In this document: piece by piece, positions 10,149 to 61,362 of the stretch | How positions within the stretch are numbered: position 1 is the stretch's first letter | Layout: each line of letters starts with the position of its first letter | The notes under the pieces: model-generated | Database searches by the model: none | Told to the model about the DNA's origin: nothing | The model's input: the letters and a program-made list of their open reading frames with translations, nothing else | Virus record (IMG/VR): IMGVR_UViG_3300010885_075474 | Coordinates: 1 to 64,000 of that record | Strand: one strand, 5' to 3' | From: a virus | DNA length: 64,000 nucleotides | Made by a program: the position numbers and the translations under genes

Positions 10149-10370
10149 ATGAGCAGAATAATTCATATTCCAGACGGCACACTCAGTCTATCCGAAAGCA
10201 GAGCGACTTGCCCGCATTGCAAATCTCACATTTCATTTGAGCATATTGAAAAACGATTTTGGAAACAAAGCAAAACGTTTATTCGTGTGAAATGTACATG
10301 TGGCAAGTACGTGGGCATAACGCAGGATTACCGGAGCGATTTTGTTGCTTTTGAACTTAAAAAACTATGA
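10149..10370 (+). CDS. Small zinc-ribbon protein
   Basis: 73 residues with CPHCKS at residues 21-26 and CTCGKY about 30 residues later, a four-Cys zinc-ribbon layout. Between them lies a Lys/Phe-rich segment (KRFWKQSKTFIRVKC). ATGA overlap with the PP-loop enzyme gene suggests coupled translation and perhaps a shared role. Confidence 0.7.
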   Translation: MSRIIHIPDGTLSLSESRATCPHCKSHISFEHIEKRFWKQSKTFIRVKCTCGKYVGITQDYRSDFVAFELKKL

Positions 10371-11860: not shown

Positions 11861-12287
11861 TGACTTCCGCTTTTTGGATACTTGTAACCATTTCATTTGC
11901 TATAAATTTTATCAGCTGGTAACAGCCAATATTTGAATAGAATGTTTTTCTCATTTTCGCATCCTCGTTGATGCTGTACTGAAGCGTTAACTCGTCAATT
12001 ATTTTACCCCAAGCAACCATGCTATCCCAAAACTCATCGGTTAACAGGTTGCGCATTTCTTCATTCAACCATTCCATACTTGGCGCCTTCTCCAGGCAGA
12101 TATAGACGGTCGCAATGGCCGATGCTGTTTCGCACATCGCATTCAGAAAATCAAACCGGCCAACTTTGGCCGCATGTTCGACCTGGCCGCGCATTTTTTC
12201 GATGATCGGCTTCACGTCATCCAGGTCGTTTTTGAATGAAACGACTTGGAAAACCACATGACTATCTTTGGCGATTGGTGTAATCAT
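11838..12287 (-). CDS. Helical hypothetical protein
   Basis: 149 residues, mostly helical after a short beta N-terminus (SHVVFQVVSFKNDLDDVK). Contains ETASAIATVYICLEKAPS and a C-terminal YQLIKFIANEMVTSIQKAE. No motif recognised. It overlaps the recombinase stop by 4 bases and the nuclease start by 23 bases, so the three are translationally coupled. Confidence 0.7.
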   Translation of the reverse strand: MITPIAKDSHVVFQVVSFKNDLDDVKPIIEKMRGQVEHAAKVGRFDFLNAMCETASAIATVYICLEKAPSMEWLNEEMRNLLTDEFWDSMVAWGKIIDELTLQYSINEDAKMRKTFYSNIGCYQLIKFIANEMVTSIQKAEVNGRQEAV

Positions 12288-12874
12288 AGGGATTTATAAA
12301 AATTTCCAATAGCTAACCGATCAAGACCGATGTAGCGCATTGTGATGTTCACGCTTGAATGGTTTAATAACTTCTGCACCATCAATAGTGCATCCGTGGT
12401 GCGGCCCCAAGTAGCGTAGGCGTGGGCTCCAAACGACTTCCGGAATGTGTGGGTAGTCACGTCGGACGGCAAGCCTAATCGCTTCGCATTCTGCTTGAAA
12501 ATGAAATTGGCGCCGCCCGTGGTAATGCCCTTGGTTTTATCCTTCACTGATGGCAGTAATGGCGTGTCCAGATATTGGATCCGAAGCCCGGCAAAGCATT
12601 GGAGCAATATTTCGGCAAAATTTTCGCCAATATAAATGCGCCGCGACTTGCTGGTTTTTTGCTCCTCGAATTCCACATATTCCCGGACAACCGGAGTCCT
12701 GCCGTCGCGCTTGATAAAATGCTTCCATCTGCATTTCTGCCAATCAGAGCAGCGCAGGCCCGTAAATGACGATACGGCCACCATAAGCAGCAGCCGATAG
12801 TCTTTTTCTGATTGCAATTGCTGGATCACCCTGGATATTTCAGGCCAAGGCATCACCGGCGCTTCTTTGTTCAT
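12284..12874 (-). CDS. Minimal tyrosine recombinase (catalytic domain only)
   Basis: 196 residues. Catalytic residues of the tyrosine recombinase/integrase family are visible: Arg41 (TGLRCSDW), Lys in EQKTSKSRR (73 or 76), HTFR (His142, Arg145), NHSS (His172) and Tyr181 (RYIG). The usual N-terminal SAM-like core-binding domain (about 100 residues) is absent; the protein starts almost directly at the catalytic domain, with no upstream remnant because the preceding gene is unrelated. Possible roles are genome-dimer resolution, inversion or integration. It lies inside the replication operon, not beside an obvious att site. Confidence 0.85.
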   Translation of the reverse strand: MNKEAPVMPWPEISRVIQQLQSEKDYRLLLMVAVSSFTGLRCSDWQKCRWKHFIKRDGRTPVVREYVEFEEQKTSKSRRIYIGENFAEILLQCFAGLRIQYLDTPLLPSVKDKTKGITTGGANFIFKQNAKRLGLPSDVTTHTFRKSFGAHAYATWGRTTDALLMVQKLLNHSSVNITMRYIGLDRLAIGNFYKSL

Positions 12875-43328: not shown

Positions 43329-45755
43329 TTAAGATATTGGTAAAGTTTCCGGTTTTTCGCCTTCCGCTTCTTCTTCTTCTTCCGCGTCCATTTGTAACTT
43401 GGCTTTCAGCGTTATAAGTTCCACGTTTCGCTGATGCTGCTTTTGAGCATTTTCGTCATCTACCTTGCCTTGGAGAACAATCAGTTTGCCCTTGGCTTCC
43501 GCTTTCATGGCCTCGCCTTGGGCTTTTGCCTGCTCCATCGCTACGCCCGCTTGTGCTTGCGCCTGGGATTGCGTGACCATGGCTTCTTGCTGTTGTTGCG
43601 CCTGCAATTGCTGGTTTTTTTGAACGGCCCGGGCCAGATAGAATTGCGCCATTTCCATTTGATCTTGGTCAATCATATTGGCTACAACCAAGTAATCCGC
43701 CTCAGTAATCAATTGGTTCTGGCGATTTTGAAGCAATGAATTCATAATTTGCTGCTTCAGATTGTCGTTTGCCAGCGGCTTAATCACCACGTCATAATCA
43801 TGCACCGAGTATTCAGGCAAAAGCCGGATCTGCTTCACCACGTTACTGCCAGGCATAATGCGCGTGAATTCCAATTCGCCATGCGCAGACACAATCTGAT
43901 ATCGGCGAGCGATCTGCAAACAGATTTGTTGATACAACGATGTGGCCGCGGTATAAAGACCGGACAGCGCCCGGTTGCTTGATGCTTCAAAGTTTTGAGC
44001 AACCCCATTCAGCACATTCGCCGCCTGGGCAGACCCGTCGCTCATTTCATTGGTTCCTGATACCATGCGCAGGCTGTTCAGGTTCATTTCAATTTCAGCC
44101 TGAATAGTCTGCATAAATTGCAGGGTAGTATTAGGGAGTTCCATGATCGGCGCTCCTTTGTTTGCTGCACCTGGATCATAATCACCTCGATCTGCATAGA
44201 TTAAATAGCCTCGGATCGCATAAATATCCAGCAAATCCGGCAACGTCACATTCATGCCGCCCAAGTCCAAGGCATCTTCCATAGATGCAATATTGATCGC
44301 AATATTTGGAGGAGGAGGCATTTTCGACATAACACTACGACGCCGCAAAATTGCCAATTGGAGATCGTCAATAATCGCCACGGCACTGTCGGTAATGGAT
44401 GGGTTATTCAGCGCATAAATCTGCACCGGTAAAAGCGCTTTCATGGCGCCCGGGCTGCCATCGCGCACCGTAATCACATCGCGGCCCGCAGCATACACAT
44501 AATTCGTGCCCACAATCCATTTTGCAGTGTATACATATTGGATCGGATAATCTCGTACAACTTTTCCCATGTTGAGATTGCGCTTGTTGAGAGTCGAACC
44601 TCGCTCCACGCGATCAAACAAGCGCCCGCCATTGGATCCAATACCAACCACATAGCGCTCCACATCCAACCCGATCACATAAAAGGTCATCACTTGGATC
44701 CGGCTATTGTCATATGGGCCACCATTTCGGTATCTGGTTTGAAATAAATCCCGTTGCCCGACAGATTGGTAAGTATCCTGATATTTCATTCCTGAATTTC
44801 CACCGTAGCCAGCATAGGTGTTGGCAATTTCCTGAAGCGTTCTTTCGTCGAAGCCGGATTCGGCCCGGATGCCCGCAATGGTCATGTCTTTTACAAACGC
44901 CACAAAATCTGAATCTCGGCAATCTGCATACATGGAGGAGCGGAAAATTAATCGCGCAGGATCAACATACTCAATAATCTGTCTGCCGGTTCCGTAGTCG
45001 TGATAAATATGCGTGGCAGCAATGGCGCCATCTACCAAGTCCTCGCATATCTGGCGCTTAATGACGGGATCGTAACGCGATAAATCAAACGAGTTTTTCA
45101 GCGCCTCGGTCAATTCAATTTCCGCTTGCAGGGAATATCCGCCCAATTTTTCGATGACATCAATATCATCTGGCGAAAACATCTCGGCGTTTTGGGAGAT
45201 ATTGGTGGGCGCCATTCCTGATTCAGCAAAAAATTGCTGCGCTTTTGGATCGGCTGCAAGACGGTCGCGCAGATAGTTCTGCTTCTTTTTATTGATCGCA
45301 AGGCCATCCACTGCCGTTACCTGGGGCTGGAATCGTAGGCTCATAATCCGGTCAATGATGCGCTCCCGGAATGCAGACCAAATCCGCACATTGTCATAGG
45401 ATATATTCAGGAGAGATTTTGCATTGTCGGCACTTGGAACGGCACCCCATTTGCCGGGATCGGCGCTATATTGAAAATCAAGTATTTCTCTATACTTGTC
45501 AACAGGCTGCATACCGCGGGCGTAGGCTCGGAGGAGCGCAAGCGGGCGAGAGTTTGCCGCATAATACCCATTTGGGCCAATGACGGTTTGGCCTGCCGAG
45601 TACAGTCCGTAAATGTACCTGGCCCATAACAGCATTTGCTGATTGTACTCGGCTTCATCTTCAGGAAAGATTGCCGATGGCGTGTCAATTTTACCCTTCT
45701 CCATTTGGGTTTTAAAATTGTCCACTCCAAAAGCCTTATTGTATTGCTCCTCCAT
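43329..45755 (-). CDS. Portal protein
   Basis: 808 residues, overlapping the terminase stop by 20 bases. Portal-like features: NVRIWSAFRERIIDRIMSL in the first quarter, long mixed wing/stem regions, MKALLPVQIYALNNPSITDS, and QAEIEMNLNSLRMVSGTNEM in the crown-proximal region. The C-terminal 150 residues are a Gln/Ala-rich coiled coil (QQLQAQQQQEAMVTQSQA) ending in an acidic tail, as in the long portals of crAss-like phages. Forms the dodecameric DNA gate at the capsid vertex. Confidence 0.8.
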   Translation of the reverse strand: MEEQYNKAFGVDNFKTQMEKGKIDTPSAIFPEDEAEYNQQMLLWARYIYGLYSAGQTVIGPNGYYAANSRPLALLRAYARGMQPVDKYREILDFQYSADPGKWGAVPSADNAKSLLNISYDNVRIWSAFRERIIDRIMSLRFQPQVTAVDGLAINKKKQNYLRDRLAADPKAQQFFAESGMAPTNISQNAEMFSPDDIDVIEKLGGYSLQAEIELTEALKNSFDLSRYDPVIKRQICEDLVDGAIAATHIYHDYGTGRQIIEYVDPARLIFRSSMYADCRDSDFVAFVKDMTIAGIRAESGFDERTLQEIANTYAGYGGNSGMKYQDTYQSVGQRDLFQTRYRNGGPYDNSRIQVMTFYVIGLDVERYVVGIGSNGGRLFDRVERGSTLNKRNLNMGKVVRDYPIQYVYTAKWIVGTNYVYAAGRDVITVRDGSPGAMKALLPVQIYALNNPSITDSAVAIIDDLQLAILRRRSVMSKMPPPPNIAINIASMEDALDLGGMNVTLPDLLDIYAIRGYLIYADRGDYDPGAANKGAPIMELPNTTLQFMQTIQAEIEMNLNSLRMVSGTNEMSDGSAQAANVLNGVAQNFEASSNRALSGLYTAATSLYQQICLQIARRYQIVSAHGELEFTRIMPGSNVVKQIRLLPEYSVHDYDVVIKPLANDNLKQQIMNSLLQNRQNQLITEADYLVVANMIDQDQMEMAQFYLARAVQKNQQLQAQQQQEAMVTQSQAQAQAGVAMEQAKAQGEAMKAEAKGKLIVLQGKVDDENAQKQHQRNVELITLKAKLQMDAEEEEEAEGEKPETLPIS

Positions 45756-47799
45756 ACTGTTTCATTCTAAATGGCGACATGAATTTTCTTGAATTACGCC
45801 GTTTTTGTTTTTCCGTTTTGATAAACATGGATTGCGCATAAAGCAGCGCCCATCCATAGGCAACAGTTAAATCTCGCTTTCCCCGGTTTTGCGGAGTGCC
45901 CGTAAACTGCTTGTGGTCCTCCAAGAGATCCAGATGCGTTTGCGCTGCTACTTTGATGGCCACTGCCGATTTAAGTTCCCGCACATAGGCAGTGATCGCT
46001 TCAGACGACGCTGGTGCGCCATAATCCACCGCTCTTACTTGCTTGTGAATTGAAACCTTCATATTTGGATTAAACGCGAGGTATTTGTGATAGGACTTAT
46101 GCTCGCAGTAAGTTATAAGACCTGGTTTTGCTTTCTCGATCAGCATATCCACTCCGTAGTAGATTGCAGTCATCAAACAATCCTCATAAAAATCATAGGG
46201 ATTATCAGGTCGGTATCGGTATGTCAAACAGCACCGGTCCGTAATCATTTTTTCGCGAATCGGATTCGGCCCCCAAGCATCGGCAGCCGGATCTTCAACC
46301 GTTGGATCAAACATGCGATGAATTGCCATCGCCCCATAAGAGCCACCGCCATCTGGCTTATAATCGTCTACCGGATCCACGCCCATCGCAAATTTACCCT
46401 TATTTCCTGGTGATGCGTAACCATTCAGAAAATCTCGGTTATTCGGAATATCAGGATGCCCGGATATTGACCAGCGGCCATTATCGCTTGGTCGCCATTC
46501 CACGTCCGAGCCAAAGCCATTTTTCCACACTAAATTCCCGCGCACGGGCTTATTCAGATACGAGATACCGAGCATATTATTGCGCTGCAATTTGCCAATT
46601 TGCTCATCAAGCAAATGCGGCAATAACACACAATCTCGATCAGGCACCGCCAAGGCATCTTCTACACTGGCCGGAAACTTCCGCTTATACGATACTATCT
46701 CGGAGGCCAGGCCCGCACGGCGCATTTGAGCAATCGTTTCTTCGCGCCGTTTTGTTTCTTCTTCTACCCTATGGCGCCCAAACTGATCCACCGGAGCCGT
46801 CAGCCAATAGCCGCGAAAAACGCGCAGCAATCCGCTTATGGTCTGGTTGTTTTTATTTAGGCTTAACGGATTGGACGCATCCCATAATTTGCGCATTTCG
46901 TCAATCGATTCGCCCTCGTCCATATCTTCGACGGTCGTTGTCAATGCTGCTTTCCCTATGATCCGGCGCCCATTCTCGAGCGATAAACAAAGTTTTACGA
47001 CCGGCCACTGTTCCGACCATCTCATTTTGGATGCCCGTATTTTACTCGGTTCGTCACCGTGAAAAAAACGGAGGCGCTTACCATCGTAAGCGCCGAACAG
47101 GGTAGGCTTGAAATCAATCCTGCTCCTCAATTCCTGAATTTGCTCCAAGTGCGTGTTTTCCGCAGTCGTGGAGCGATATCTAAAGATTAACTCCTCTTTA
47201 GGCATGTCGGTGCCCGTAGATTTTGGCCGAAAGAAATAGACCATATCACGGTTCGACATCACTACTCGGTCAAAGTTTTCCTGGGCGTCTACATCGGATT
47301 TATTCATCATCCCGAACCACGATGAGCGGTATCTTGTAATAAGATCCCATCCGTAGCAGAGCGTTTTTTCCGTATCGCCAATACGGCGGGGCTTCACATC
47401 GAATATTCCATAATAGTTCGGATCGTTTTCAACATGATCCAATATTTGAAAGTATTCAATCGCTTCATAGCGGAAATCGGGATAATCACCGGATTCAGCC
47501 CGCCAATAGTTAAAAAACAAATACGCGCAGCCCGTAAAATAAACCGGTTCCCCGCCAATCAGCATCCACACGCCATTCCAGCGCCGATGCCATTCTCGCC
47601 GAATGAATTCTTCTTCTTTTTTCGGCTCCCACTTTGCAAGATCCTTTGGAACATCAATACGTCGGAATATCTGTTGCGATTTTGGCAGATCGTAATTCAT
47701 CATTTCGCTTCGCGGAGGCATATCCGGCAAACGAATTGGAATTTCAACCCCTTTTATTTCACAAAAGTTATTCTTAGTAAACGTCTTGATGTATTCCAT
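45736..47799 (-). CDS. terL: Terminase large subunit
   Basis: 687 residues. ATPase: Walker A-like KPRRIGDTEKTL (residues 136-147) and Walker B FFHGDE (245-250). RNase H-like nuclease: GVDPVDD (473-479, first Asp), YCEHKSY (about 564-570) and the final acidic KRDLTVAYGW (Asp643). Pumps phage DNA into the procapsid and cuts the concatemer. A separate small-terminase gene was not recognised. The P-loop has Asp-Thr-Glu instead of the usual Gly before Lys-Thr, as in some Bacteroidota phage terminases. Confidence 0.85.
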   Translation of the reverse strand: MEYIKTFTKNNFCEIKGVEIPIRLPDMPPRSEMMNYDLPKSQQIFRRIDVPKDLAKWEPKKEEEFIRREWHRRWNGVWMLIGGEPVYFTGCAYLFFNYWRAESGDYPDFRYEAIEYFQILDHVENDPNYYGIFDVKPRRIGDTEKTLCYGWDLITRYRSSWFGMMNKSDVDAQENFDRVVMSNRDMVYFFRPKSTGTDMPKEELIFRYRSTTAENTHLEQIQELRSRIDFKPTLFGAYDGKRLRFFHGDEPSKIRASKMRWSEQWPVVKLCLSLENGRRIIGKAALTTTVEDMDEGESIDEMRKLWDASNPLSLNKNNQTISGLLRVFRGYWLTAPVDQFGRHRVEEETKRREETIAQMRRAGLASEIVSYKRKFPASVEDALAVPDRDCVLLPHLLDEQIGKLQRNNMLGISYLNKPVRGNLVWKNGFGSDVEWRPSDNGRWSISGHPDIPNNRDFLNGYASPGNKGKFAMGVDPVDDYKPDGGGSYGAMAIHRMFDPTVEDPAADAWGPNPIREKMITDRCCLTYRYRPDNPYDFYEDCLMTAIYYGVDMLIEKAKPGLITYCEHKSYHKYLAFNPNMKVSIHKQVRAVDYGAPASSEAITAYVRELKSAVAIKVAAQTHLDLLEDHKQFTGTPQNRGKRDLTVAYGWALLYAQSMFIKTEKQKRRNSRKFMSPFRMKQYGGAIQ

Positions 47800-47868: not shown

Positions 47869-49470
47869 CTACTGCCGAAGTATTGTTGCGTTTGTTATCA
47901 CAATTCCATTTGCGGCAAGGGCGGTGCCAAATTGAGCAAAAAGAGCAAGCGTTTTTGTTGTTGTGGTATTTATACCTGTATTATCTGAAAGCACTGGGTT
48001 TGAAAATGGAAACCACCCACCAAAAAACACGGGATCTACTAAAGCCGTTTGCATTTGTGCAAACCCTTGCGCTCGCATTGTTCCAGAGGCACCCGCTGCA
48101 CTAACTCTTATTGAAAAGTTTGCTGTAAATGTTCGAAATGCGCCGCCAGAAATTGGGCGCAAACCCGCTGTTGCTGAATAAATCGTATCGGTTCCGTAAA
48201 CCAATCCTACTCGAAGATTGCCAGGCGTAGTTGCATCCGTTTGAATATAACCTTCAGCCATGATTCGCAGCGTTTGTCCAGAAGACAACGAGTTGGCGGG
48301 AATTGAAACACTTGTTAATGTTGACACTGCCGTTGTGTTGTTAATCGTTGTGTTGGATGTTGCACTAAGCAAAGTTTGGTCAAAAGGGTAGTAAGTAGCG
48401 CCTGTTCCAGATCCTTCAAATTTATTCAAGTCTGTATTATGGCGAATTACGCCCGCTGCTGCTGTGGGGCGCTGCGCCGATGTTCCCGTGGGCAATCTTA
48501 TTGCACCAGTTCCCGCCACATCAAGGCGATATAAAGGGTTTGTATTGCCTATCCCTAAGTTCCCCGCCTTATTCAATCTCATCCGTTCGGCTGCCGTTGC
48601 TGTGCCGTCGGAGGTCCAGAACGATATATTTCCTGAATAAAATGTGCTTGCTGTTGAGTCGCCCCGAAATTGGATTGTTGCCGCTTCTCTAAAAGCAGAA
48701 CTGTAAAACGCTTGCGCATGCAATGCACCTAAATAATCGTAAGTGGTTGTACAATTACCACTTAAAACGCTTGCGCCACCTCTTGAACATATAATAGACC
48801 CCCCCTCTACAACGTTGGATGCTACATTATTACCACTTCGTAGGTATAATGCTCCTGCAGAGGTAGTTGCTTGCAAACCTGCATATCCGCCATTGTTCCC
48901 AGACGTATATGTGTTTAGATTAAACCATGCATTTGTGTTGTCATAAGTAAAATTTCCGCTATTAGAAAGCGAATTGACTCCCGAAAAATAAGGTATTCGA
49001 TTCGTTGCTCCAGAAAAAGGGAATGACGGCGCCCATGCTGATCCAGTCCATCCTAAGTAGTTTCCAGCACTTGCGCCTGCCTGGCTAATTTTTGACATCC
49101 ACACGGATCCATTTGCAAGACGTGTGGATGTAATCGCTGAAACAGCCAAACGGGAACTGTCAATCGTCGCAGCGGCAATTTTTGAATTTGTCACTGCATT
49201 TGCGTTGATCGTCCATGACAATCCGCCGCCCGAAACAGTCACGTCCGTGTAGTTGCCGTCCGTAACCGATCCGGATTGGTCGGTTCCCCAAACAACGGAC
49301 GTGTCGCCCGACATCTTTATAACTTGGCCATTCGTACCAGGTGCCAGATATTTTACAAATCCGTTTCGATAAAACATCGCAAACGGCTTGGTTGGTTGAA
49401 GCCGAGGATTTCCCGTTTGGGAAAAACAGAAAATCGGAAGAAAAAGGAGGAAAAAGAGGATTTTTTTCAT
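47869..49470 (-). CDS. Tail fibre protein with N-terminal signal peptide
   Basis: 533 residues. MKKILFFLLFLPIFCFSQ at the N-terminus is a textbook Sec signal peptide with a Bacteroidota-style Gln at the expected cleavage site. The body is fibre-like: Thr/Ser/Gly-rich repeats of the type (T/S)-x-(K/R)-(I/L)-A, then LGIGNTNPLYRLDVAGTGA and RLPTGTSAQRPTAA, segments common in phage tail fibres preceding a C-terminal receptor-binding domain. The C-terminal 150 residues are beta-rich. A cleavable export signal on a virion protein is unexpected. Start overlaps the spike stop by 4 bases. Confidence 0.75.
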   Translation of the reverse strand: MKKILFFLLFLPIFCFSQTGNPRLQPTKPFAMFYRNGFVKYLAPGTNGQVIKMSGDTSVVWGTDQSGSVTDGNYTDVTVSGGGLSWTINANAVTNSKIAAATIDSSRLAVSAITSTRLANGSVWMSKISQAGASAGNYLGWTGSAWAPSFPFSGATNRIPYFSGVNSLSNSGNFTYDNTNAWFNLNTYTSGNNGGYAGLQATTSAGALYLRSGNNVASNVVEGGSIICSRGGASVLSGNCTTTYDYLGALHAQAFYSSAFREAATIQFRGDSTASTFYSGNISFWTSDGTATAAERMRLNKAGNLGIGNTNPLYRLDVAGTGAIRLPTGTSAQRPTAAAGVIRHNTDLNKFEGSGTGATYYPFDQTLLSATSNTTINNTTAVSTLTSVSIPANSLSSGQTLRIMAEGYIQTDATTPGNLRVGLVYGTDTIYSATAGLRPISGGAFRTFTANFSIRVSAAGASGTMRAQGFAQMQTALVDPVFFGGWFPFSNPVLSDNTGINTTTTKTLALFAQFGTALAANGIVITNATILRQ

Positions 49471-52400
49471 AATGCAAGGTTGTATTTTAGGGCAAAGTAG
49501 GATTTCATTGCAGAAATTTGCGATGCCGTTAAGATTCGATTATAAATAACCACTTCGCATATTTCGCCAACAAAGCTGAAATTGCCCGTGTTAGTTCGTC
49601 CAATAAAAAAGTTACTGGTGTTGGTTGTGGATAGCGTATTGCTTTGAGTATTGGCTGCATATGGGCCCAGCGGACCAACGTACGCCCGGGCTCGAAGTGC
49701 CGCAGTTGCATTCTCGGGATCCGTCGTAAACGCGAGCATCCCAAAATTACTTTCGGTATACCCATTTAGCGAATTTGAATTTGAAACGACTAAATTACTG
49801 CCATTAGAAATTAAATTCGCTACAACTCCATTCCCAGGATTACGCTGGTAATACATCCCGTATCCTCGTTGCGCACTACCAACCGTGCCACCAATAATGC
49901 CGGATAGCGTACCGTTTACAAGAATAGAATCAGCCATTTTCACGATAACAAATACCGTGGCGCTATCCTTTTGCAATACAGACATATCGGAGCTATTCCG
50001 AACAGCCCATTTTGCCGTGGTCGTATCAGCCAGCGTAGTCGAAAACTTGAACGATGGTCTGAAATTGAGCGCTACTTTCTTCCAAGTTGGACCTCGGTTG
50101 ACCAATGGAGCAGTAAAATTCCGATTATTCCCAGACCAGTCGTGCAGCGTATCCACTTGTTGCCCATTTGTGAATTTCGTTTCTTTTCCGGCATCAAGCC
50201 ATACGTAAGGACTCAAACTTAGTGGGTACTCTAATGCCGCCTTGTAGTTTGCCGGGCACTGAAATAACAGTAGCGTGTCATTTCGCAAGGATCCTGCTGA
50301 TGAATATGACCCCCAAATGGTATCCAATTCAACCACATCACCAAGAAGATTCTGGCAATACATCTGACTGTTAAGGGCAACCGTCTTGCTTGATATTGTT
50401 GGCGACTCTATGCGAAACGATACATTCTTACCTGTTTGCCAACCTAACAATTTCTGCAATACCGTGGTATTGGTCGTCGCCTTCTTAATGACAAAACTGG
50501 TGTAGTTAAAATTCATTGCTATGGTATCATACCCGGTCGCAACAAATCGTGAATAGTCGTAATTAGGGATGATGTTTGATCGCCCTGTAATGCTTGCCCA
50601 TATTCGGCGCCCTAAATTAACTTGTGATTGCGCATCAATGTGCGAACTATCTGATACAACCACGGCATCGCTGTTGTACACGCAATTTGTCCAATCAAGA
50701 CCATCGGTATTCAATTGATTGTACAAATAATTGGCAGTCTGACCATCCGGAATTTCGCCAGGCCAAATCGTTTCGCCCGAAACTAATCCGGTTTTGATCT
50801 GCACAGCCAGCACCCTGGTACTTTTTTGCCATTTAGATAAATTCCGAAATTGATTCATTACCGTAAACCAATCTTGGGTATATTGGCGCTGGGTGCGCCC
50901 CGTCCATCCGTCTGTCTCGCCTTGATACCAGACGAGAACATCAATTCGAGGAATTCCGGATGCAAATACTCGCGCGCTGATTGTATCCCATTGTGTACCT
51001 GTCGGCGAAATCCAGTTTGCTATGGCTCGCCCACCCAAAGCAGCGTAAACAACGCGGGTTAAGCGACCGTCTTGTTCTGCTTGCTGGCCAATCGTGGTGC
51101 CCCACCAAGCAGTTTTGGTCGTAAGGCCATTCATCCAATACCAGTTCGTTTTGAAAGGACGGGCCCAACTTTCTATTGTTGGATTCCAAATGCACTGAAA
51201 TTTCGACGGAACCGTGTCGGCTGGATTGCTTGTCGGGCCACACCGAGGCGTAGCATTACTTTGTCCGGTTATAACAATGTATACGGGTTGTTGCGCCGAA
51301 AACGTGCCTTGAATTCGGTCGTAATAACCGATTTTCTTCCAAACACCATACACATATTGGTAGGTATTATATATTCCAGTGCCATCATTTTCGGATAAAT
51401 TGACCCAGGTCCGTAGCGTATCTGCGCCAGTCGGTGTTGCAGCCTTAATTATCCAACCAGAATTTCCAACACCACCCGCTGCCGATGCAGGAACCCAAGC
51501 GCTGCCATTCCATTGAGGCACCTGGTTGGGCGCAGCGCCACTTTGGCCAAGTTTCGACAACGTGATACCACCCGCCAAATCGCTGTTATTGATTGATAGC
51601 GGCTTGATCTTGGTGCTGTCTATGGAATTTACCGCAATTTTAATGCCGGTTACAGCATTTGAAGCAATTCGCGTTGCAGTAATCGCGCTGGCAGCCAGTT
51701 TAGAACTATCCGACACAGCGCCCGCCGCCAAATTCCGGGCCCAAACCTGGCCGGTAGCGATATTGGTAGCCTGAATTGCATTCGCGCCAACTTTGGTACT
51801 ATCCGATACGGAGCCCGCTGCCAATTTTGTGCTTGATACAGCACCAACGGCAATAGTTGTGGCCAATGACCCTGCCGCTTTAGTGACATCACCAGTCAAT
51901 GCAGTCGTAGAAGCAACTTTCAAAGTACCGGTAACATTACTGCCCGAAAGATCAATTGGATTGGCAGTAATAACTTGGCTTGATCGGCTCAAATAATTTT
52001 CGCCCGCCAAACTTACATCCCCGGTATTCGTGCCGGATACAGTGGCGTTACCAGGCACGTCCAATGTTTTACCACCACCACTTAGCATCAAGCTTGCACC
52101 GGATGTGCTGATTGTTGCTCCATTCACCGAAGTGGGCGTAATGGCGCCCAGTGAGATCGTAAGCATTGGCGTACTCGTTGGCGTAGCAACTGTTCCGGTT
52201 ATTCCGTTGGCGTTGTTGAAACCAAATGAAGTAACGGTGCCTGTTCCGCCACCGCCGCCACTACCCGGGCAATCGTCAGCCAAAGCCGCTACCGCAGCAT
52301 ATGTTTGATTGGTGACAATGTTGATCGCAGGAGGCGTTTTATAGGCAATTACCGCCTTGCCTGCCAAGTTTGGGGTGATACTTCCGATCAATACGCGATT

Positions 52401-52688
52401 CACGACCAGCGGAACCGTGGTGTTATTACCGTTTACCGTTTCGACAGCGCTCACGGCAAACAGTTTGTTGCAAGATCGCCGTACAATTGTATCGGGTTTT
52501 TCGGTGCAAAAGTAATTGATCAGCGGATTACCATACTGAACAATCGCGGATCCATCTGCTGCCGTCCGAACCAAGCGGATTTCGTCAACATTAAAGCCCC
52601 GCGCTCCCGTGCTGGTATTGAGCGAAATGACCTGCGCATTGAGCGCAAAAGCCAAAACGGAAAAAAGGAAAATAAGTGCTTGTTTCAT
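49467..52688 (-). CDS. Tailspike with signal peptide, SASA-type esterase and LamG-like domain
   Basis: 1073 residues from the ATG at 52688 (ATGA overlap). N-terminal MKQALIFLFSVLAFALNAQ is a signal peptide. Residues about 150-430 are Ser/Thr/Gly-rich with repeats such as STKLAAGSVSDSTKVG. From about 470 an SGNH/sialate-O-acetylesterase (SASA) domain shows VITGQSNA (block I, about 475), VWYQGETDG (about 588) and DSSHIDAQ (Asp/His, about 681). The C-terminal 270 residues (YVWLDAGKETKFTNG, DWSGNNRNF, GEICEVVIYNRILT) form a laminin-G/concanavalin-like domain. It likely binds and deacetylates host surface polysaccharide. Confidence 0.8.
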   Translation of the reverse strand: MKQALIFLFSVLAFALNAQVISLNTSTGARGFNVDEIRLVRTAADGSAIVQYGNPLINYFCTEKPDTIVRRSCNKLFAVSAVETVNGNNTTVPLVVNRVLIGSITPNLAGKAVIAYKTPPAINIVTNQTYAAVAALADDCPGSGGGGGTGTVTSFGFNNANGITGTVATPTSTPMLTISLGAITPTSVNGATISTSGASLMLSGGGKTLDVPGNATVSGTNTGDVSLAGENYLSRSSQVITANPIDLSGSNVTGTLKVASTTALTGDVTKAAGSLATTIAVGAVSSTKLAAGSVSDSTKVGANAIQATNIATGQVWARNLAAGAVSDSSKLAASAITATRIASNAVTGIKIAVNSIDSTKIKPLSINNSDLAGGITLSKLGQSGAAPNQVPQWNGSAWVPASAAGGVGNSGWIIKAATPTGADTLRTWVNLSENDGTGIYNTYQYVYGVWKKIGYYDRIQGTFSAQQPVYIVITGQSNATPRCGPTSNPADTVPSKFQCIWNPTIESWARPFKTNWYWMNGLTTKTAWWGTTIGQQAEQDGRLTRVVYAALGGRAIANWISPTGTQWDTISARVFASGIPRIDVLVWYQGETDGWTGRTQRQYTQDWFTVMNQFRNLSKWQKSTRVLAVQIKTGLVSGETIWPGEIPDGQTANYLYNQLNTDGLDWTNCVYNSDAVVVSDSSHIDAQSQVNLGRRIWASITGRSNIIPNYDYSRFVATGYDTIAMNFNYTSFVIKKATTNTTVLQKLLGWQTGKNVSFRIESPTISSKTVALNSQMYCQNLLGDVVELDTIWGSYSSAGSLRNDTLLLFQCPANYKAALEYPLSLSPYVWLDAGKETKFTNGQQVDTLHDWSGNNRNFTAPLVNRGPTWKKVALNFRPSFKFSTTLADTTTAKWAVRNSSDMSVLQKDSATVFVIVKMADSILVNGTLSGIIGGTVGSAQRGYGMYYQRNPGNGVVANLISNGSNLVVSNSNSLNGYTESNFGMLAFTTDPENATAALRARAYVGPLGPYAANTQSNTLSTTNTSNFFIGRTNTGNFSFVGEICEVVIYNRILTASQISAMKSYFALKYNLAL

Positions 52689-53359
52689 TGATTTTTTTTG
52701 TTTGCATTGAAATCCCTGGCCATTTTTTCCGCCCATCCGCCCCTTTCTTCGCTTGCAGTCGCCGCTTCCAGCGCTGCCTGGGCCGTCCGAGAGTGCGGGA
52801 ATAGCCTTGTTTCATAATCCTGCACTTTGGCAGTCAATTTCTCAATAGTTTCAATGGCTTTTTGCTTGCCAATCATGTGCTTTTCAGGATCCGCCACGTC
52901 ATCTAATCGCATTTGCAAGTAGGTCTGCATCTCCTGCATTCCCACCTTCAGCGAAATCCAAGTTGTAAACACGTCGTTGTTCTCAGTCTGCATGTACTCC
53001 ATGATGATTTTGGAGTACCACCAATGATTTTTGACAATCATTTCCCGCAACCGATCCTTCGCAGGAATGCCCACCATCTCGGCGCACAATTCGATTCTGC
53101 GATCATAGTTCTCCTCGTCATAAAACGGCGAATCCCGAGAGCAAAATAGAATGACAAAATTCACCATTCTATTCAAGTCCGAAAGCGATGGCGGCTTTTC
53201 CCCCATCGCTTCAAATATATCCTTCGGCACCTTATACAGCCCAGGACGCTTCAGTAACTTTGTGTAAAAATCAAAAGTGTGCTTACCATCTGGAACTGCA
53301 AACGGATTAAATTCAAGCGCATCAAAAGCGCTGTAATCGGTTCCCTCAATTTTTTTCAT
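52685..53359 (-). CDS. Hypothetical late protein
   Basis: 224 residues, helical. Contains NFVILFCSRDSPFYDEENYD and a YSKIIMEYMQTENNDVF segment, then a charged coiled-coil end (AIETIEKLTAKVQDYETR). Proteins of this look recur in structural modules of Bacteroidota phages without a known function. The size would suit a small terminase, but no HTH is clear. Sits 1 base after the GroES-like gene's stop and overlaps the spike start. Confidence 0.65.
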   Translation of the reverse strand: MKKIEGTDYSAFDALEFNPFAVPDGKHTFDFYTKLLKRPGLYKVPKDIFEAMGEKPPSLSDLNRMVNFVILFCSRDSPFYDEENYDRRIELCAEMVGIPAKDRLREMIVKNHWWYSKIIMEYMQTENNDVFTTWISLKVGMQEMQTYLQMRLDDVADPEKHMIGKQKAIETIEKLTAKVQDYETRLFPHSRTAQAALEAATASEERGGWAEKMARDFNANKKNQ

Positions 53360-53360
53360 A

Positions 53361-54122
53361 CTACAAGATTACATCTTCGGTCATGGCGTAGGCATTTATA
53401 AAATGACGGAATGTGGCGTAGAGCGGGCGAGCGCGATTTTTCCCCCAAGCCTGATGCTCGTCGTACTCAATCCTGGCCGCTGCACCCTTCGTCAAAAAGA
53501 CTCGTTTCGACAACAAAGTTATATCAAAATCTTTACTTTCCGGAAAAAGCAGATAGTTTTTGACCAAACAACCCTCTTTTTTCACAATTCCTTTCCTTTC
53601 GTCAACACCAAACTCATTGGCCTTCCCTTCAAAATAATCACCCCGCTCGTCGTCGTCCATTTCCAAAAACACAGCGCCGTTGAGCGGATATATTTCTTCG
53701 CCATCAATGCGGGCAATCAGATTGTCATACTTTACAATCATATACCCATCAAACACCAAATGCTTTTGCGACAGCCCCACATGCTTAATCAAAACCTGGT
53801 CTCCATCCTGAATTTCAATCGGCACATCAAAATATGTTGTCCGTTGTGTCAACCTGGACGTATATTTCTGGTCGGTAGGGCCAAAATCCCGCGCATTCAT
53901 ATACGGATGAATCAAATCACCCAGATAATAATTGCTTTTGGGAGCCTTAACCACTTTCGCTACCCTGCTTTTGAACAGATCCGCCTCCTCGTAATTCCGG
54001 GAAACAACAATGCCCGACCTGGTATCATGCACCAGATCGCTGCCAAGTTCAATCAGCACATATCCGGGCGCTACGCTAAACCGCAATATGTCGATAAATG
54101 GAGAGTTTGTTGCTTCTGACAT
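53361..54122 (-). CDS. GroES-like co-chaperonin with canonical mobile-loop motif
   Basis: 253 residues. FSVAPGYVLIEL (15-26) matches the first GroES strand; TRSGIVVSR (34-42) matches the GroES mobile loop with the hydrophobic GIV(V) that docks to GroEL; DLFKSRVAKVVKAP (48-61) the next strand; GDQVLIKH (107-114) the G-D-x-V strand; and YDNLIARI (132-139) the last strand. A 40-residue insertion lies at about 62-102, and a C-terminal extension (about 140-253) is not recognised; it has a similar beta pattern (LNGAVFLEMDDD, SKRVFLTKGAA) and could be a degenerate second barrel. E. coli GroES has 97 residues. Likely partner of the chaperonin at 57378-58984. Confidence 0.7.
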   Translation of the reverse strand: MSEATNSPFIDILRFSVAPGYVLIELGSDLVHDTRSGIVVSRNYEEADLFKSRVAKVVKAPKSNYYLGDLIHPYMNARDFGPTDQKYTSRLTQRTTYFDVPIEIQDGDQVLIKHVGLSQKHLVFDGYMIVKYDNLIARIDGEEIYPLNGAVFLEMDDDERGDYFEGKANEFGVDERKGIVKKEGCLVKNYLLFPESKDFDITLLSKRVFLTKGAAARIEYDEHQAWGKNRARPLYATFRHFINAYAMTEDVIL

Positions 54123-54621
54123 AGTTTTTCAATATTTTTCCATACTTTTTATTCGTCGCATACCCGCAGCGCTGCAATCCATCCGCCCACTTCTCCCAAT
54201 CCAGCCCATATTTCTCCCGCATCCAGGAATATCGCCGGTGCATCAAAACCAAGGCGTAGTCATAAAACGATTTTTCCTCGCTTTCATACACCACAAACTT
54301 GTCGTTCGGCAAATCGTCGGCATATTCCACAAAAGGATCTGGGCCCAGCGCCTTCACGCCGAACATATTATGATAAACGCTGGATAATTCAGATCGCCCG
54401 CAATCGCTTTCAATCGCCGCCTGCGCGAGACAAATCTCCAGCGGAATTCCATACCGCTGCTCAATCAAATTTGCCATCCTGGCATGCTTCATGAAGAATT
54501 CAGCCTTTTCGCCATATACGCATGGTACTGAAATATCAATCCGCTTTAATTCATGCGCCATTGGCGCCTCAATGTTGCTGGAAAATGCCAGCAAAAATAG
54601 TGCAATGAAAAAACCTTTCAT
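54076..54621 (-). CDS. Exported glucosaminidase-type endolysin
   Basis: 181 residues from the ATG at 54621. MKGFFIALFLLAFSSNIEA is a signal peptide. The mature part is a GH73-like (FlgJ/AcmA-type) N-acetylglucosaminidase: GIPLEICLAQAAIESDCGRS with the catalytic Glu71, then NMFGVKA and a C-terminal YDYALVLMHRRYSWM / GYATNKKYGKIL region. It cleaves peptidoglycan from the periplasm after Sec export, so lysis would not need a classical holin. Its end overlaps the GroES-like start by 47 bases. Confidence 0.85.
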   Translation of the reverse strand: MKGFFIALFLLAFSSNIEAPMAHELKRIDISVPCVYGEKAEFFMKHARMANLIEQRYGIPLEICLAQAAIESDCGRSELSSVYHNMFGVKALGPDPFVEYADDLPNDKFVVYESEEKSFYDYALVLMHRRYSWMREKYGLDWEKWADGLQRCGYATNKKYGKILKNYVRSNKLSIYRHIAV

Positions 54622-54680
54622 CTGCTTTTGTTTTGGTGAAAAAATAAGCCGGGCAAGCATCGCTCACCCGGCCCCATTCC

Positions 54681-55421
54681 CTACTTCGCCCAAGGCAGTT
54701 TGGCGATTTTCGCTCCGCCAGAGCTGTACTCATACACCGGCGTCTGGTTGTACTCCGGCGCAATTCCCTTTTTGACTTCTTCAAGCAATTTCATCCAAGT
54801 CGTAACGCCCGCTTCCTTCACTGCAACTTTGAAAGCCTGCGTAAATACGCCGCCGCCTTCATTTTCATAACTTACTTGCGCATCCGTGCAAGCAGACAGC
54901 CCGCAATAGGCAATCCGCCCCGGGATCGGGTAGGTAGTCGGCTTCACCTTCACACTCTTTGGCAATACCAGGCACCGAACTGCATGATACCCGCCACCCA
55001 ACGGATGACCGGCCATGCGGCTGTTGCTTTGGCTGAAACAAGTGTCGGAGATCGTGATAATATTCACCTGGGCCTTGAACTTCCGCCATTCCACCGGCAA
55101 TTCATAATCCCAAAGGATCTGATCGTGCATACACCGGCATGTTGCCCGTCCACTTTGCGTGTCTTGGTAGGAGCCATGCCCGCTATGATACCACAGCAGC
55201 GTATCTCCAGGCTTCATAATGCTTGCAAACCGGCGCAAGTTGTTTATCACTTCACCCCGGGTGCAGTTTTCGTTGAATAACTCGACATACTCACAGCCGC
55301 TTTCGTAGCACAAGATGTCCTTGACACCCAGCGCATCCTTCACGCAGCCGCGCAAATCGTTTCCAGGCCCATAATAATTGGCATCGTACTTGTCGGATGC
55401 CGTGTTGAGAACGTATAGCAT
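54681..55421 (-). CDS. Metacaspase-like (peptidase C14) protease
   Basis: 246 residues from the ATG at 55421, 4 bases after the upstream stop (an ATG at 55448 is also in frame). The caspase fold is clear: YYGPGNDLRGCVKDA (the 'L-x-G-x-x-x-D-A' start), TRGEVINNLRRF, GDTLLWYHSGHG with catalytic His82, IITISDTCFS with catalytic Cys128, then IAYCGLSACTDAQVSYE and GVFTQAFKVAV, which match the end of the metacaspase p10-like part. Both catalytic residues are intact, so it should be active. No signal peptide. It lies next to the endolysin in the late block. Capsid or fibre processing, lysis control or attack on host proteins are all possible. Confidence 0.8.
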   Translation of the reverse strand: MLYVLNTASDKYDANYYGPGNDLRGCVKDALGVKDILCYESGCEYVELFNENCTRGEVINNLRRFASIMKPGDTLLWYHSGHGSYQDTQSGRATCRCMHDQILWDYELPVEWRKFKAQVNIITISDTCFSQSNSRMAGHPLGGGYHAVRCLVLPKSVKVKPTTYPIPGRIAYCGLSACTDAQVSYENEGGGVFTQAFKVAVKEAGVTTWMKLLEEVKKGIAPEYNQTPVYEYSSGGAKIAKLPWAK

Positions 55422-55425
55422 AAAA

Positions 55426-56157
55426 TCAGATTTTAATGACACCACCATTGCGATGCCACGAATTTCGCGCTTCATCGCTAAAAGAAAGCAATTTGCCCCG
55501 AACTTTCCACACATATTTCGTATTTTCCATGATTTTCGGGCCGTATGTGGCGCGAACATAGGACGAATAGGCATTATGCGGATTATCAAAAAACGGCGCC
55601 CCTTTCATATAATTCTTCCAATACACCCGGCCATCAACAACTTGCGACTCCAATCCTTCGATCACCGCAATATCATCCGGCCAAGGAAACCACTCCACCA
55701 ATTCAATATTCAGCAGTTGCACCATGAAACGAGCATATTCCACCCGCTTATGCGAGCCAATCATGCTTTTTAGATGATTTCGCTTCATATTATTCCGAAC
55801 CGCTTCCGACAAATCCGCCAGATACCCGATTTTGCCATCCCTGGACTTATAAACCATCTCCAGCGCAGGCAAATAATCACCAGGCGAACCATAATGACTC
55901 GGCTGCCGAGCCTCATAACGCCCATACAGATACACATCAAAGCACAAACGCCCTGAATCCATCGTATTTTGCCGCAATTCGATATGCTCTTTCGGAATTT
56001 TCCCAAACAATCGATTGAATTCATTCAGCGCAATAGGCCGAAACGTGGTGAATTCGCCCGCTTGCTGATGCAAACGAACTTGCCGGTTCGCAAGCGACCA
56101 ATATACTGCCCGCTCTTTATACGGGAATATCAAATTTGCACGACTTAAGCCTGCCAT
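55426..56157 (-). CDS. Hypothetical late protein
   Basis: 243 residues. Contains CFDVYLYGRYEARQPSHYG, an AVRNNMKRNHLKSMIGSHK helix and a Trp/Pro segment VEWFPWPDDIAVIEG. Ends with FSDEARNSWHRNGG. Not recognised. Its coding strand is G-rich and C-poor like the neighbouring chaperonin genes. It starts inside the upstream gene (13-base overlap) and ends 4 bases before the metacaspase ATG. Confidence 0.65.
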   Translation of the reverse strand: MAGLSRANLIFPYKERAVYWSLANRQVRLHQQAGEFTTFRPIALNEFNRLFGKIPKEHIELRQNTMDSGRLCFDVYLYGRYEARQPSHYGSPGDYLPALEMVYKSRDGKIGYLADLSEAVRNNMKRNHLKSMIGSHKRVEYARFMVQLLNIELVEWFPWPDDIAVIEGLESQVVDGRVYWKNYMKGAPFFDNPHNAYSSYVRATYGPKIMENTKYVWKVRGKLLSFSDEARNSWHRNGGVIKI

Positions 56158-56453: not shown

Positions 56454-57374
56454 CTATTTTGCCCTTTTAATGATCGATTTTTTCCAATTTTTTACCACCA
56501 CCTTCTCCGGATACTCATAAACCTTACCCTGCTTCGCAAAAAAGCCATCATTTTTATACACAAACGGCGGATAGTCGTAGAAAAAGCCATCGCCATCCTC
56601 ATCAACCGCAAAAAAATCATGCCCATCCGGAATGCCCTTAAACAATTCTTCCGCCCGCAACTTCTCAAACTTAATCTTCCGAACCCCAGTACGAGGCAGC
56701 AAAAAACTCACCTCAAAGCCGCCAAAAGCAATATCCGCGTCACCGGAATACTTCGCACCCACCTTCCGAGACCCGCCTTCCGCAGCATCCCAAAACTGCA
56801 CTTCTTCATGAAACTCCGGCTCCTTCTCAAAGAAATACCCCCTTCCATCCGGATTCACCGCAAAAAACTCACACCACACCGGCGCATGCTCGAAAAACTT
56901 TTCCGCATCAATTTTGCTGCAATCTACAACGCCATTTTCCATCAAACTTTCCAAATACAAATAAAAGAACATCCGATCCCGATCATCCGCCAATTTCTCA
57001 TTCTCAATCACCATGCGCTTCGCTTCCAGCACCACAGGATGCTTCTCAATTGCTTCCAGATCGCTTTTCTCGCTTTCTTCAGGCGATACCCACCCCGCAA
57101 CATCACGGACCAGCACAAAGCGATACAGCGCGTCCTTCCCTTCTTCATCCTGCAATACAAGCGGCTCGCTATTCAACCGCTCATACACAATAACCGACCC
57201 CGCAACAAGCCCCTCAAATTGCTCACCCAGCACTCCCACCTTCACCACTTCAGCCGCAGAAATCTCCCGCGCATACTCCGATACATCAAACACATCATCT
57301 CGCTTTGCCTCAATAGGCTTAACCAGCAAACGCCCTGGCGTTAAGAAAATCGAACTCAATTTCACTCTTGCCAT
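56454..57374 (-). CDS. GroES-like protein with large C-terminal extension
   Basis: 306 residues. Residues 9-95 follow the GroES barrel: IFLTPGRLLVKPIEAK, a loop (DDVFDVSEY) in place of the mobile loop but without GI(V/L), ISAAEVVKVGVLGEQFEGL, AGSVIVYERLN and YRFVLVRDVAGWV. A charged helical linker (96-150) leads to two copies of an aromatic module, HAPVWCEFFAVNPDGRGYFF (163-182) and GIPDGHDFFAVDEDGDGFFY (248-267), related to the W-x-x-A-P-x-W modules at 6596 and 9098. It starts 3 bases after the GroEL-like stop, so the order groEL-groES is inverted relative to bacteria. Possibly a dedicated cap for folding one virion protein. Confidence 0.6.
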   Translation of the reverse strand: MARVKLSSIFLTPGRLLVKPIEAKRDDVFDVSEYAREISAAEVVKVGVLGEQFEGLVAGSVIVYERLNSEPLVLQDEEGKDALYRFVLVRDVAGWVSPEESEKSDLEAIEKHPVVLEAKRMVIENEKLADDRDRMFFYLYLESLMENGVVDCSKIDAEKFFEHAPVWCEFFAVNPDGRGYFFEKEPEFHEEVQFWDAAEGGSRKVGAKYSGDADIAFGGFEVSFLLPRTGVRKIKFEKLRAEELFKGIPDGHDFFAVDEDGDGFFYDYPPFVYKNDGFFAKQGKVYEYPEKVVVKNWKKSIIKRAK

Positions 57375-57377
57375 GGC

Positions 57378-58394
57378 CTACGAATTTGGAAGAACAACTT
57401 TGCGCGTTTCGATCCATTCCGCCGCTTCTTCCGCCGCATTATAAACCGCCGCCTTGATCGCACTCAAACTATCCAAAACGCCAATCTCAATCGCATCGCA
57501 CAACTCAAACTGACTCGAATCGCCATCCTCGGCCAGCACTTTGAGCATCCGCTCATCCAGCAACACCGACGACAACTCACCCTCATTCTGCGCAACAATC
57601 CCGCAGCAATCCTCAATAACACCGCTATCAACCCCGCCATTTTCAAGCAAACGACGGAACACAGCAAACGACACATCGTCCAACCCCGACAACTCATCAT
57701 GCTCCCCTTCTCCCAGGCTCATACCCGCCCGAGCAATGCTCAATCCCGCACCCGGCAACACCCCTTCCTTCAAAGCCGCAAAAGAAGCCATATACGCATC
57801 CTCCACAACCTCCTTCAGCCAGTTCGTCGCACCCGTCGTGATGATCGGCACCTTGATTATCCCAATCCGCTGCTCCATATTCGCCAAACGACCCTTCAAC
57901 TTCGCCCGCTTCTCCTCATTATCCGCACCATCCAACATCACCCGAATCACATCCTTATGCGCAGCCAAATCGCCAACACCCTCCTTCCCAATAAACACCG
58001 ACCCCTTCATATCAACAATGACCTTCGCCGCTTCACCAAAATCCCCCACGCCCTTGAAATCCGCCAACATCGCTCCATCCCGCTTCACCAAATTCTTACC
58101 CCCAACAACCGCCCGCAAATCGCTCAATACCGCAGCATCTTCAGCCCGCACACAATACACCGGCAGCACAGGACCACCACCAGCCCGAACCCGCTTTACC
58201 AACGTGCCAAGCGCACTTCCTTCCAAATTCAAACTCACAACCACCAACGGCCTTCCGTCCTTCTCAAACTCCATCACCCAGGCCTGCATCATAGGCGCCA
58301 CATCCTTCCAATCCTTCGCCTCGTCAATAATCAGCACATAAGGATTCTCAATAGACGACTTTCCAAACTTGCCCCCAATAAAACTTTCATGCAT
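57378..58394 (-). CDS. groEL: GroEL-like chaperonin, C-terminal portion (apical, intermediate, equatorial)
   Basis: 338 residues from an internal ATG (58394), but homology-like sequence continues upstream in this frame to the slippery site at 58409. Seen: SSIENPYVLIIDEAKDWKDV (apical start, compare 'ENPYILL.DKKI'), VVVSLNLEGSALGTLV, ANMEQRIGIIKVPIITTG, EDAYMASFAALKEGVLPGAG (the 'EGIVPGGG' signature) and IGVLDSLSAIKAAVYNAAEE (the equatorial GxxD, matching Asp495 of E. coli GroEL). The C-terminal Gly-Gly-Met tail is absent. With the N-terminal ORF and a -1 shift the product is 535 residues (E. coli GroEL 548). The spliced product is the likely functional form. Confidence 0.8.
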   Translation of the reverse strand: MHESFIGGKFGKSSIENPYVLIIDEAKDWKDVAPMMQAWVMEFEKDGRPLVVVSLNLEGSALGTLVKRVRAGGGPVLPVYCVRAEDAAVLSDLRAVVGGKNLVKRDGAMLADFKGVGDFGEAAKVIVDMKGSVFIGKEGVGDLAAHKDVIRVMLDGADNEEKRAKLKGRLANMEQRIGIIKVPIITTGATNWLKEVVEDAYMASFAALKEGVLPGAGLSIARAGMSLGEGEHDELSGLDDVSFAVFRRLLENGGVDSGVIEDCCGIVAQNEGELSSVLLDERMLKVLAEDGDSSQFELCDAIEIGVLDSLSAIKAAVYNAAEEAAEWIETRKVVLPNS

Positions 58395-58984
58395 GGACCA
58401 CCCTTCAGCAAAAAACCCTCCAGGCGCCGCGCACTCAATGCCGATACACTGTCATCAAACTCCACCTCAACCGTGCCATCCACCCCAATATCAAATACCA
58501 ACTTCGCCACCATCTCCCCAATAACAGGATCATTGTTACCCGCAAGCGTGGCTACCTTCGCCAACAAATCATAACCATAGGCATCATTCGTTACCTTGAT
58601 CGCCATAGCATCCAACGCATCCAGCATACGCGCCGCAACCCAACGAATCCGACTCCCCATCCCACGATGGCTCCCCGCCATGGCATTCAAACCCCAGCGA
58701 TAAAACGCACCCAACAAAATAGTGAACGTCGTCGTCGCATCGCCCGCAGCCCGCCGCACAACAGCAGCCCGCTGCCGAACCCGCGTAACCAGATTGTTCG
58801 CCATGTCGTCCTGCACAGGCTGATAATGCTCCAGCACTTTCATGCCATCCCGGAACGCAACCGGCGCCGTGCCATCAAATAAATGCACATTCGCCCCGTA
58901 AGGACCGGCAGTGCTGCCTACCAAATCAACTATCTTGTCCATCCCGACAAGATACTGATCCTCAATTTCGATGATTTTATTCAT
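58331..58984 (-). CDS. groEL: GroEL-like chaperonin, N-terminal portion (equatorial/intermediate)
   Basis: 217 residues as read. Residues 24-40 (GSTAGPYGANVHLFDG) match the 'LGPKGRNV' nucleotide-binding segment; FRDGMKVLEH the 'TKDGVSVA' segment; RRAAGDATTTFTILLG (about 77-92) the 'AAGDGTTTATVLA' motif with the ATPase Asp kept (Gly-Asp-Ala-Thr-Thr-Thr); and DLLAKVATLAGNNDPVIGEMV the intermediate domain. It diverges from the family after residue about 191, exactly at a T6 run, and ends with an unrelated 25-residue tail. The other frame continues the chaperonin. Located first among the large genes of the late block. Confidence 0.8.
   Translation of the reverse strand: MNKIIEIEDQYLVGMDKIVDLVGSTAGPYGANVHLFDGTAPVAFRDGMKVLEHYQPVQDDMANNLVTRVRQRAAVVRRAAGDATTTFTILLGAFYRWGLNAMAGSHRGMGSRIRWVAARMLDALDAMAIKVTNDAYGYDLLAKVATLAGNNDPVIGEMVAKLVFDIGVDGTVEVEFDDSVSALSARRLEGFLLKGGPCMKVLLGASLESRLLRILMC
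58409..58415 (-). promoter_or_regulatory. Candidate -1 frameshift site T_TTT_TTG in the chaperonin gene
   Basis: In the N-terminal reading frame the codons are GGT TTT TTG at 58417-58409. Tandem slippage by one base on T_TTT_TTG places the next codon GCT in the frame of the C-terminal chaperonin ORF and joins GroEL-like sequence on both sides without a gap. GGAGGG lies immediately upstream. No strong downstream stem-loop was obvious. A missing T in a homopolymer or a real mutation would look the same. Confidence 0.55.
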
Positions 58985-60903: not shown

Positions 60904-61362
60904 ATGGTTGATTTTTCACAAGTTGCAGAAATTACACTTTCTTATTCGGCTAAGGTCAAAGCCGCAGACCGGCCCCGCATCAGTATGTCTTCAGACATCG
61001 CGCGTTTTTTTCGCGGGGTGTTTCCAGCGGAAGAAATAGAACTAAGAGAATTTTTTTATGTAGCGTTTCTTAGTAAAGCAAACGCCGTTATGGGCTATTT
61101 ACAATTAAGCGCCGGAGGTGCGAGCGGTACGGTGGTAGATATTAAACTGTTATTGGGCGCAGCATTGAAAGCGCAAGCGCAAGCAATTATTTTATGTCAC
61201 AATCACCCGTCAGGAAATCTGAAACCGTCACAAGCGGATAGAGATATCACGCGCCGAATTTTAGAAGCCGGCAAAATATTAGATTTATCTGTTTTGGACC
61301 ATGTGATTTTGGCGCCTGACGGAACTTATTTAAGTTTTGCCGACGAAGGTTTTTTGTACTAA
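60904..61362 (+). CDS. RadC-type JAMM-domain protein
   Basis: 152 residues. The RadC/JAB signature is complete: REFFYVAFLSKANAVMGY, then GTVVDIKLLLGAALKAQAQA, CHNHPSGNLKPSQADRDIT with His99-x-His101 and Asp112, and a LDHVILAPDGTYLSFADEG end. The N-terminal helix-hairpin-helix part of bacterial RadC is replaced by a 35-residue segment, as in plasmid and phage forms. A metal-dependent JAMM fold is known for the family; its biological role is unsettled despite the old 'DNA repair' label. Confidence 0.88.
   Translation: MVDFSQVAEITLSYSAKVKAADRPRISMSSDIARFFRGVFPAEEIELREFFYVAFLSKANAVMGYLQLSAGGASGTVVDIKLLLGAALKAQAQAIILCHNHPSGNLKPSQADRDITRRILEAGKILDLSVLDHVILAPDGTYLSFADEGFLY

Follow-up and report, generated by a model that had tools for sequence, protein, structure and literature searches.

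The stretch of DNA analysed, referred to here as the window, comprised the first 64,000 nucleotides of a virus record of 69,015 bases (IMGVR_UViG_3300010885_075474). An uninterrupted ORF of 246 codons was read on the minus strand from position 55421 to 54681; the plus-strand frame over the same positions contained stops, and an in-frame ATG at 55448 provided an alternative start that would overlap the stop of the upstream ORF. The product was a metacaspase-like protein, and the features of its neighbourhood were as follows.

45736 to 47799, minus strand: terminase large subunit (phrog_6681, E = 1.5e-63)
53361 to 54122, minus strand: possible second GroES-like protein (Cpn10 below cut-off, E = 0.069)
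54076 to 54660, minus strand: glucosaminidase endolysin, next gene downstream of the protease (PF01832, E = 1.6e-24; PHROG lysis families; hydrophobic N-terminus by eye)
54681 to 55421, minus strand: Peptidase C14, metacaspase-like, 246 aa (Pfam, alignments, AlphaFold2 model and Foldseek)
55426 to 56157, minus strand: uncharacterised 243-aa protein, immediately upstream of the protease (no Pfam or PHROG match)
56454 to 57374, minus strand: 306-aa protein with GroES-like N-terminus by eye (weak matches to unknown PHROGs)
57378 to 58394, minus strand: GroEL-like, C-terminal part (phrog_5725 positions 216-532, E = 2.6e-18)
58331 to 58984, minus strand: GroEL-like, N-terminal part (phrog_5725 positions 20-180, E = 1.5e-20)

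The stop of the upstream ORF was separated from the protease start by 4 nt, and the protease stop from the endolysin ORF by about 20 nt (about 60 nt if the endolysin uses an internal start). This 4-nt gap, together with the endolysin lying next downstream, placed the gene in the late operon, where it probably shares a transcript with the genes for chaperonin, endolysin, spike and packaging. The position between chaperonin genes and an exported endolysin, proposed in a first-pass annotation made from the sequence alone, was thus recovered; two uncharacterised ORFs and the GroES-like ORF, the latter recognised by eye, stood between GroEL and the protease. In relatives of the phage, GroES was annotated near the terminase.

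GroEL was split across two overlapping frames in the window, in contrast with the single continuous gene of the relatives. The split may stem from a sequencing error in a homopolymer or from programmed -1 frameshifting at a T6 run (58415-58410, minus strand). The minus strand also encoded an exported-looking fibre or spike of 1089 aa (49467-52736), in which a lectin-like domain accompanies a sialic-acid-type acetylesterase (SASA), and a protein of 3226 aa (18205-27885) containing a large polyvalent protein domain (LPD23). A RadC-like JAB protein (60904-61362, plus strand), a PAPS-reductase-like protein (10367-11140, plus strand) and a tyrosine-integrase-like protein (12284-12874, minus strand) were located outside the late operon core.

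Pfam Peptidase_C14 (PF00656, clan CD) matched the protease with 64.3 bits (cut-off 21.4 bits; E = 1.7e-17) over residues 15-232 and profile positions 11-225 of 233, and the match was repeated in a six-frame search of the whole virus record (E = 5.9e-19). No PHROG family matched the protein, consistent with the rarity of C14 among phages; head-protease families (S78 and others) gave no match in Pfam or PHROG, Pfam detected no sensor or partner domain, and no membrane or export signal was seen by eye. In phmmer searches of the PDB the protease retrieved GSU0716 (3bij, 7.6e-9) and metacaspase-1 (1e-4), and a profile built from the window protein and 27 viral-contig members reached 4e-77 for 3bij and 3e-44 to 1e-60 for yeast, plant and trypanosome metacaspases. 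The AlphaFold2 model (pLDDT 83.6, pTM 0.83) presented low confidence only in a linker at residues 132-146. Foldseek ranked GSU0716 first, followed by metacaspases, MALT1 and caspases, and all of the 50 PDB matches listed had the caspase fold (3bij, metacaspases, paracaspases or caspases). As to the choice between a type I metacaspase and an orthocaspase, p10-like strands and helices, a putative p10 domain after p20, were modelled at residues 171-232, and the Pfam match ran to profile position 225 of 233. The Pfam and profile matches, the confident model and the Foldseek ranking taken together indicated that the observation is real and not a product of chance; the initial description, a metacaspase-like protease encoded intact within the late operon of a phage, was confirmed.

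The motifs YHSGHG and SDTCFS held H82 and C128, respectively, as the first-pass annotation had reported. Both residues were invariant among the 28 aligned sequences (the window protein plus the 27 viral-contig members), along with Y16, C26, D29, S80, G83, D105, S125, D126 and S130, and were kept throughout the alignable rows of a set of 93 that included bacteria. The fold and the conservation of this dyad were the two points on which the original claim had been staked, and both held. The S1-pocket residues described for TbMCA2 (PMC4357240, PMC6426788) corresponded in the alignment to C26, D29, S80 and D126 of the phage protein, all four kept, and such an acidic pocket, as expected of metacaspases and orthocaspases (C14B), would favour Arg or Lys at P1. 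The Cys loop departed from the consensus SDSCHSG, reading SDTCFSQ, with the change at position 131 affecting an otherwise nearly invariant Gly, so that catalysis could be weak.

Calcium-activated metacaspases bind calcium through a DD motif, an Asp at C+7 and a loop that follows directly on the catalytic His, and this binding unites the catalytic dyad (PMC9622860). Among 91 comparable C14 sequences (the 93 aligned minus two incomplete rows), the acidic cation-binding loop was missing only in the phage protease, where it comprised 22 residues, 2 of them acidic, as compared to a median of 27 residues and 8 acidic ones in the set. The second Asp of the DD motif was replaced by Y106, a Tyr also found in one other row, and C+7 was occupied by Arg (R135), which is usual for the set, most bacterial members also lacking the Asp; D105 was the sole calcium-binding aspartate remaining. 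Thus the loop, and not these two positions, represented the distinctive loss and, on the aligned sequences, a new feature relative to the C14 relatives, in a comparison set collected by an SDSCHSG-type motif, beyond which further divergent or loop-less members may exist. Since the loop is lost, activity or regulation without calcium is likely; release of the enzyme from calcium control would be the simplest reading, with reduced activity as the alternative.

The portal, capsid and terminase genes matched PHROGs 6547, 13704 and 6681, respectively, and the terminase shared 25-28% identity with its counterparts in Maribacter phage Panino, a spring-water podovirus, Flavobacterium elemo phages and Cellulophaga phages, phi19:3 (Pachyviridae, Baltivirus) among them. 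The phage was regarded as a 69-kb podovirus related to phi19:3; terminase, portal, an unknown gene and capsid follow one another in this order in it and its relatives (interrupted by an insertion in some of them). These relatives, along with signal peptides recognised by eye, make a Bacteroidota bacterium the likely host. Presence in related phages, a check proposed at the outset, gave a negative outcome. A C14 family search that recovered the window gene itself detected no C14 in 87 related phage records, many of them fragments and only about 8 exceeding 55 kb, nor did tblastn give a C14 hit in the 87 phage records of INPHARED whose terminase is related. Scans of IMG/VR with single-protein patterns of the protease, endolysin or portal yielded no relatives, and the terminase alone yielded four further distant phages, all without C14. 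Its absence from the related records searched indicated that, as far as sampled, the gene is accessory in this phage lineage. No close homologue usable for a selection test was found.

The notion that a caspase-fold copy is unusual in a phage was well founded: tblastn with four different C14 proteins found C14 in a single one of 50,697 phage records, that of the 485-kb uncultured phage LR745208. As this one belongs to an uncultured huge phage, no isolate with a C14 gene is known here for study. A motif scan of IMG/VR added at least 29 C14 contigs, one of them nearly identical to the LR745208 record. Hallmark genes (terminase or portal) were present in at least seven of the C14-bearing contigs, which makes several of them genuine phages; among the others, some sequence may be of cellular or eukaryotic-virus origin and wrongly assigned. 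The neighbours of the C14 genes, assigned by profile matches, were heterogeneous, including a tail lysozyme (L092), the small and large terminase on either side (L095), RusA (L104), a DNA polymerase exonuclease subunit (L099), an SLT transglycosylase nearby (L097) and a portal directly before C14 (L100), and such variety suits an accessory gene for host interaction. The terminase family of our phage was not found in the 29 contigs by a search that had no positive control of its own, and viral C14 rows were scattered among bacterial rows in the tree; both fit repeated acquisition. The phage protease occupied a very long branch (3.15-3.74 changes per column), which could reflect relaxed constraint, and shifted position once other long rows were removed, for which reasons the tree assigned neither host nor donor and no donor is claimed.

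Other observations were made around these genes. The portal of L100 (2083-4164), directly upstream of C14, carried a C-terminal ADP-ribosyltransferase-like region. Two genes away from C14, L118 (7882-10762, LR745208) encoded a protein resembling 2H phosphoesterases (PF13563); some phage counter-defence enzymes have this fold as well. A patatin-like phospholipase was encoded just upstream of C14 in L103 (2700-4815), L106 (7299-9243) and L119 (7814-10418, with one ORF between). The cyanobacterial plasmid pCYAN10605.01, possibly a phage-plasmid, encoded a caspase-family protein and, three genes away on the opposite strand, a glycoside hydrolase that degrades peptidoglycan (L005, 65-2319). The ten ORFs tried did not include an Acb2/Tad1-like neighbour seen in a tally of viral C14 genes, which was dropped as evidence; a glucosaminidase neighbour from the same tally was not located either.

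Considering these results together, our preferred reading, to which we assign a probability of roughly 45%, is that the gene encodes an accessory, late-expressed Arg/Lys endoprotease that acts on host proteins. It would be a cytoplasmic cysteine endopeptidase of caspase fold, gained horizontally, in which H82 would polarise C128 and the acidic pocket would pick Arg or Lys at P1; without the calcium-binding loop it would probably work, or be regulated, free of calcium. Host proteins would then be cut late in infection, most likely for takeover or counter-defence, and their cleavage may additionally ease lysis. More tentatively, a bacterial calcium-regulated metacaspase may have been turned by the phage into a calcium-independent late weapon against host immune or cell-death proteins, or into a lysis timer.

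Help in lysis was the nearest rival to a host-directed protease, although we consider it rather unlikely. According to this explanation, a late protease degrades envelope or regulatory proteins of the host and so triggers or speeds lysis together with the exported endolysin, directly upstream of which it lies on the same strand; some viral C14 genes are also near muralytic genes (L092, L097), and three accompany the patatin phospholipase. However, the protease displayed no membrane or export signal by eye, the majority of the other phage C14 genes did not adjoin lysis genes, and the literature searched offered no earlier case of a phage lysis protein with the caspase fold.

Less probable still is a maturation protease that cuts capsid, scaffold or spike proteins at assembly, a prohead or spike role having been foremost in the first-pass annotation. 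The late operon is an appropriate place for such an enzyme, profile searches recognised no further maturation protease among the virion genes, as had been stated previously, and in two contigs C14 is next to packaging genes (L100 and L095). Conversely, no C14 was found in the records, many of them fragments, of related phages sharing the terminase, portal and capsid, the gene lay about 9 kb from the portal and outside the portal-capsid block, the capsid protein showed no long N-terminal extension as compared with relatives, and L103, L106 and L119 encoded both C14 and a conventional head protease. A core function in head maturation is thus unlikely, and it was abandoned as the leading role, although L100 and L095 leave it some probability.

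The remaining two explanations were the least probable, to a similar degree. A protease acting within the infected cell against competing phages would resemble bacterial defence proteases such as the caspase-fold TPR-CHAT of Craspase, an antiviral example (PMC9729208), and the variable accessory positions of phage C14 genes agree with superinfection exclusion; nevertheless, the protein has no sensor or partner domain, no partner gene was recognised nearby, and its late-operon position points to expression too late to exclude. Decay of a captured gene into a weakly active or inactive relic, suggested by the very long branch, the changed Cys loop and the lost cation loop, is opposed by the intact 246-codon frame, the retention of the dyad and of the four S1-pocket residues, and the confident full-length predicted fold.

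Prokaryotic caspase-fold proteases are studied as stress, cell-death and antiviral factors, and the presence in a late operon of a copy both divergent and intact hints that the same chemistry may be turned by phages on their hosts. The 29 other viral contigs listed, including the recurrent patatin-caspase pair in three, provide a starting set, and the loop loss predicts activity without calcium. A calcium-free late weapon, if true, would mirror on the viral side the caspase-fold proteases known from bacterial defence.

No study characterising a phage metacaspase was encountered in the literature searched, mostly outside subscription papers. The proteases of LypABC (PMC13236601) are trypsin-like, for which reason this system was rejected as a parallel for lysis. 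The C14 protein of LR745208 (L003/L118) shared about 23% identity with the phage protease and retained the canonical DSCHSG Cys motif. Among viral structures, the best matches were metacaspases from giant viruses, among them Heterosigma akashiwo virus 01, Clandestinovirus and medusaviruses, which share the caspase fold at about 10-21% identity and whose hosts are eukaryotes. Type I metacaspases (yeast Yca1/Mca1 and TbMCA2) coincided with the phage protease in the dyad, the S1-pocket residues and, apparently, the p20-then-p10 order, whereas the phage enzyme lacked the prodomain, the cation-binding loop and the second Asp of the DD motif, and presented Arg instead of Asp at C+7. The nearest solved structure was the bacterial stand-alone C14 protein GSU0716 of Geobacter sulfurreducens (PDB 3bij; profile E = 4e-77; fold E = 1.9e-17, TM 0.77), with the same p20-like then p10-like order; in contrast to the phage protease, which has neither, GSU0716 carries PDTSNDEPDGVDETWC as its acidic loop and SDSCHSG as its Cys loop.
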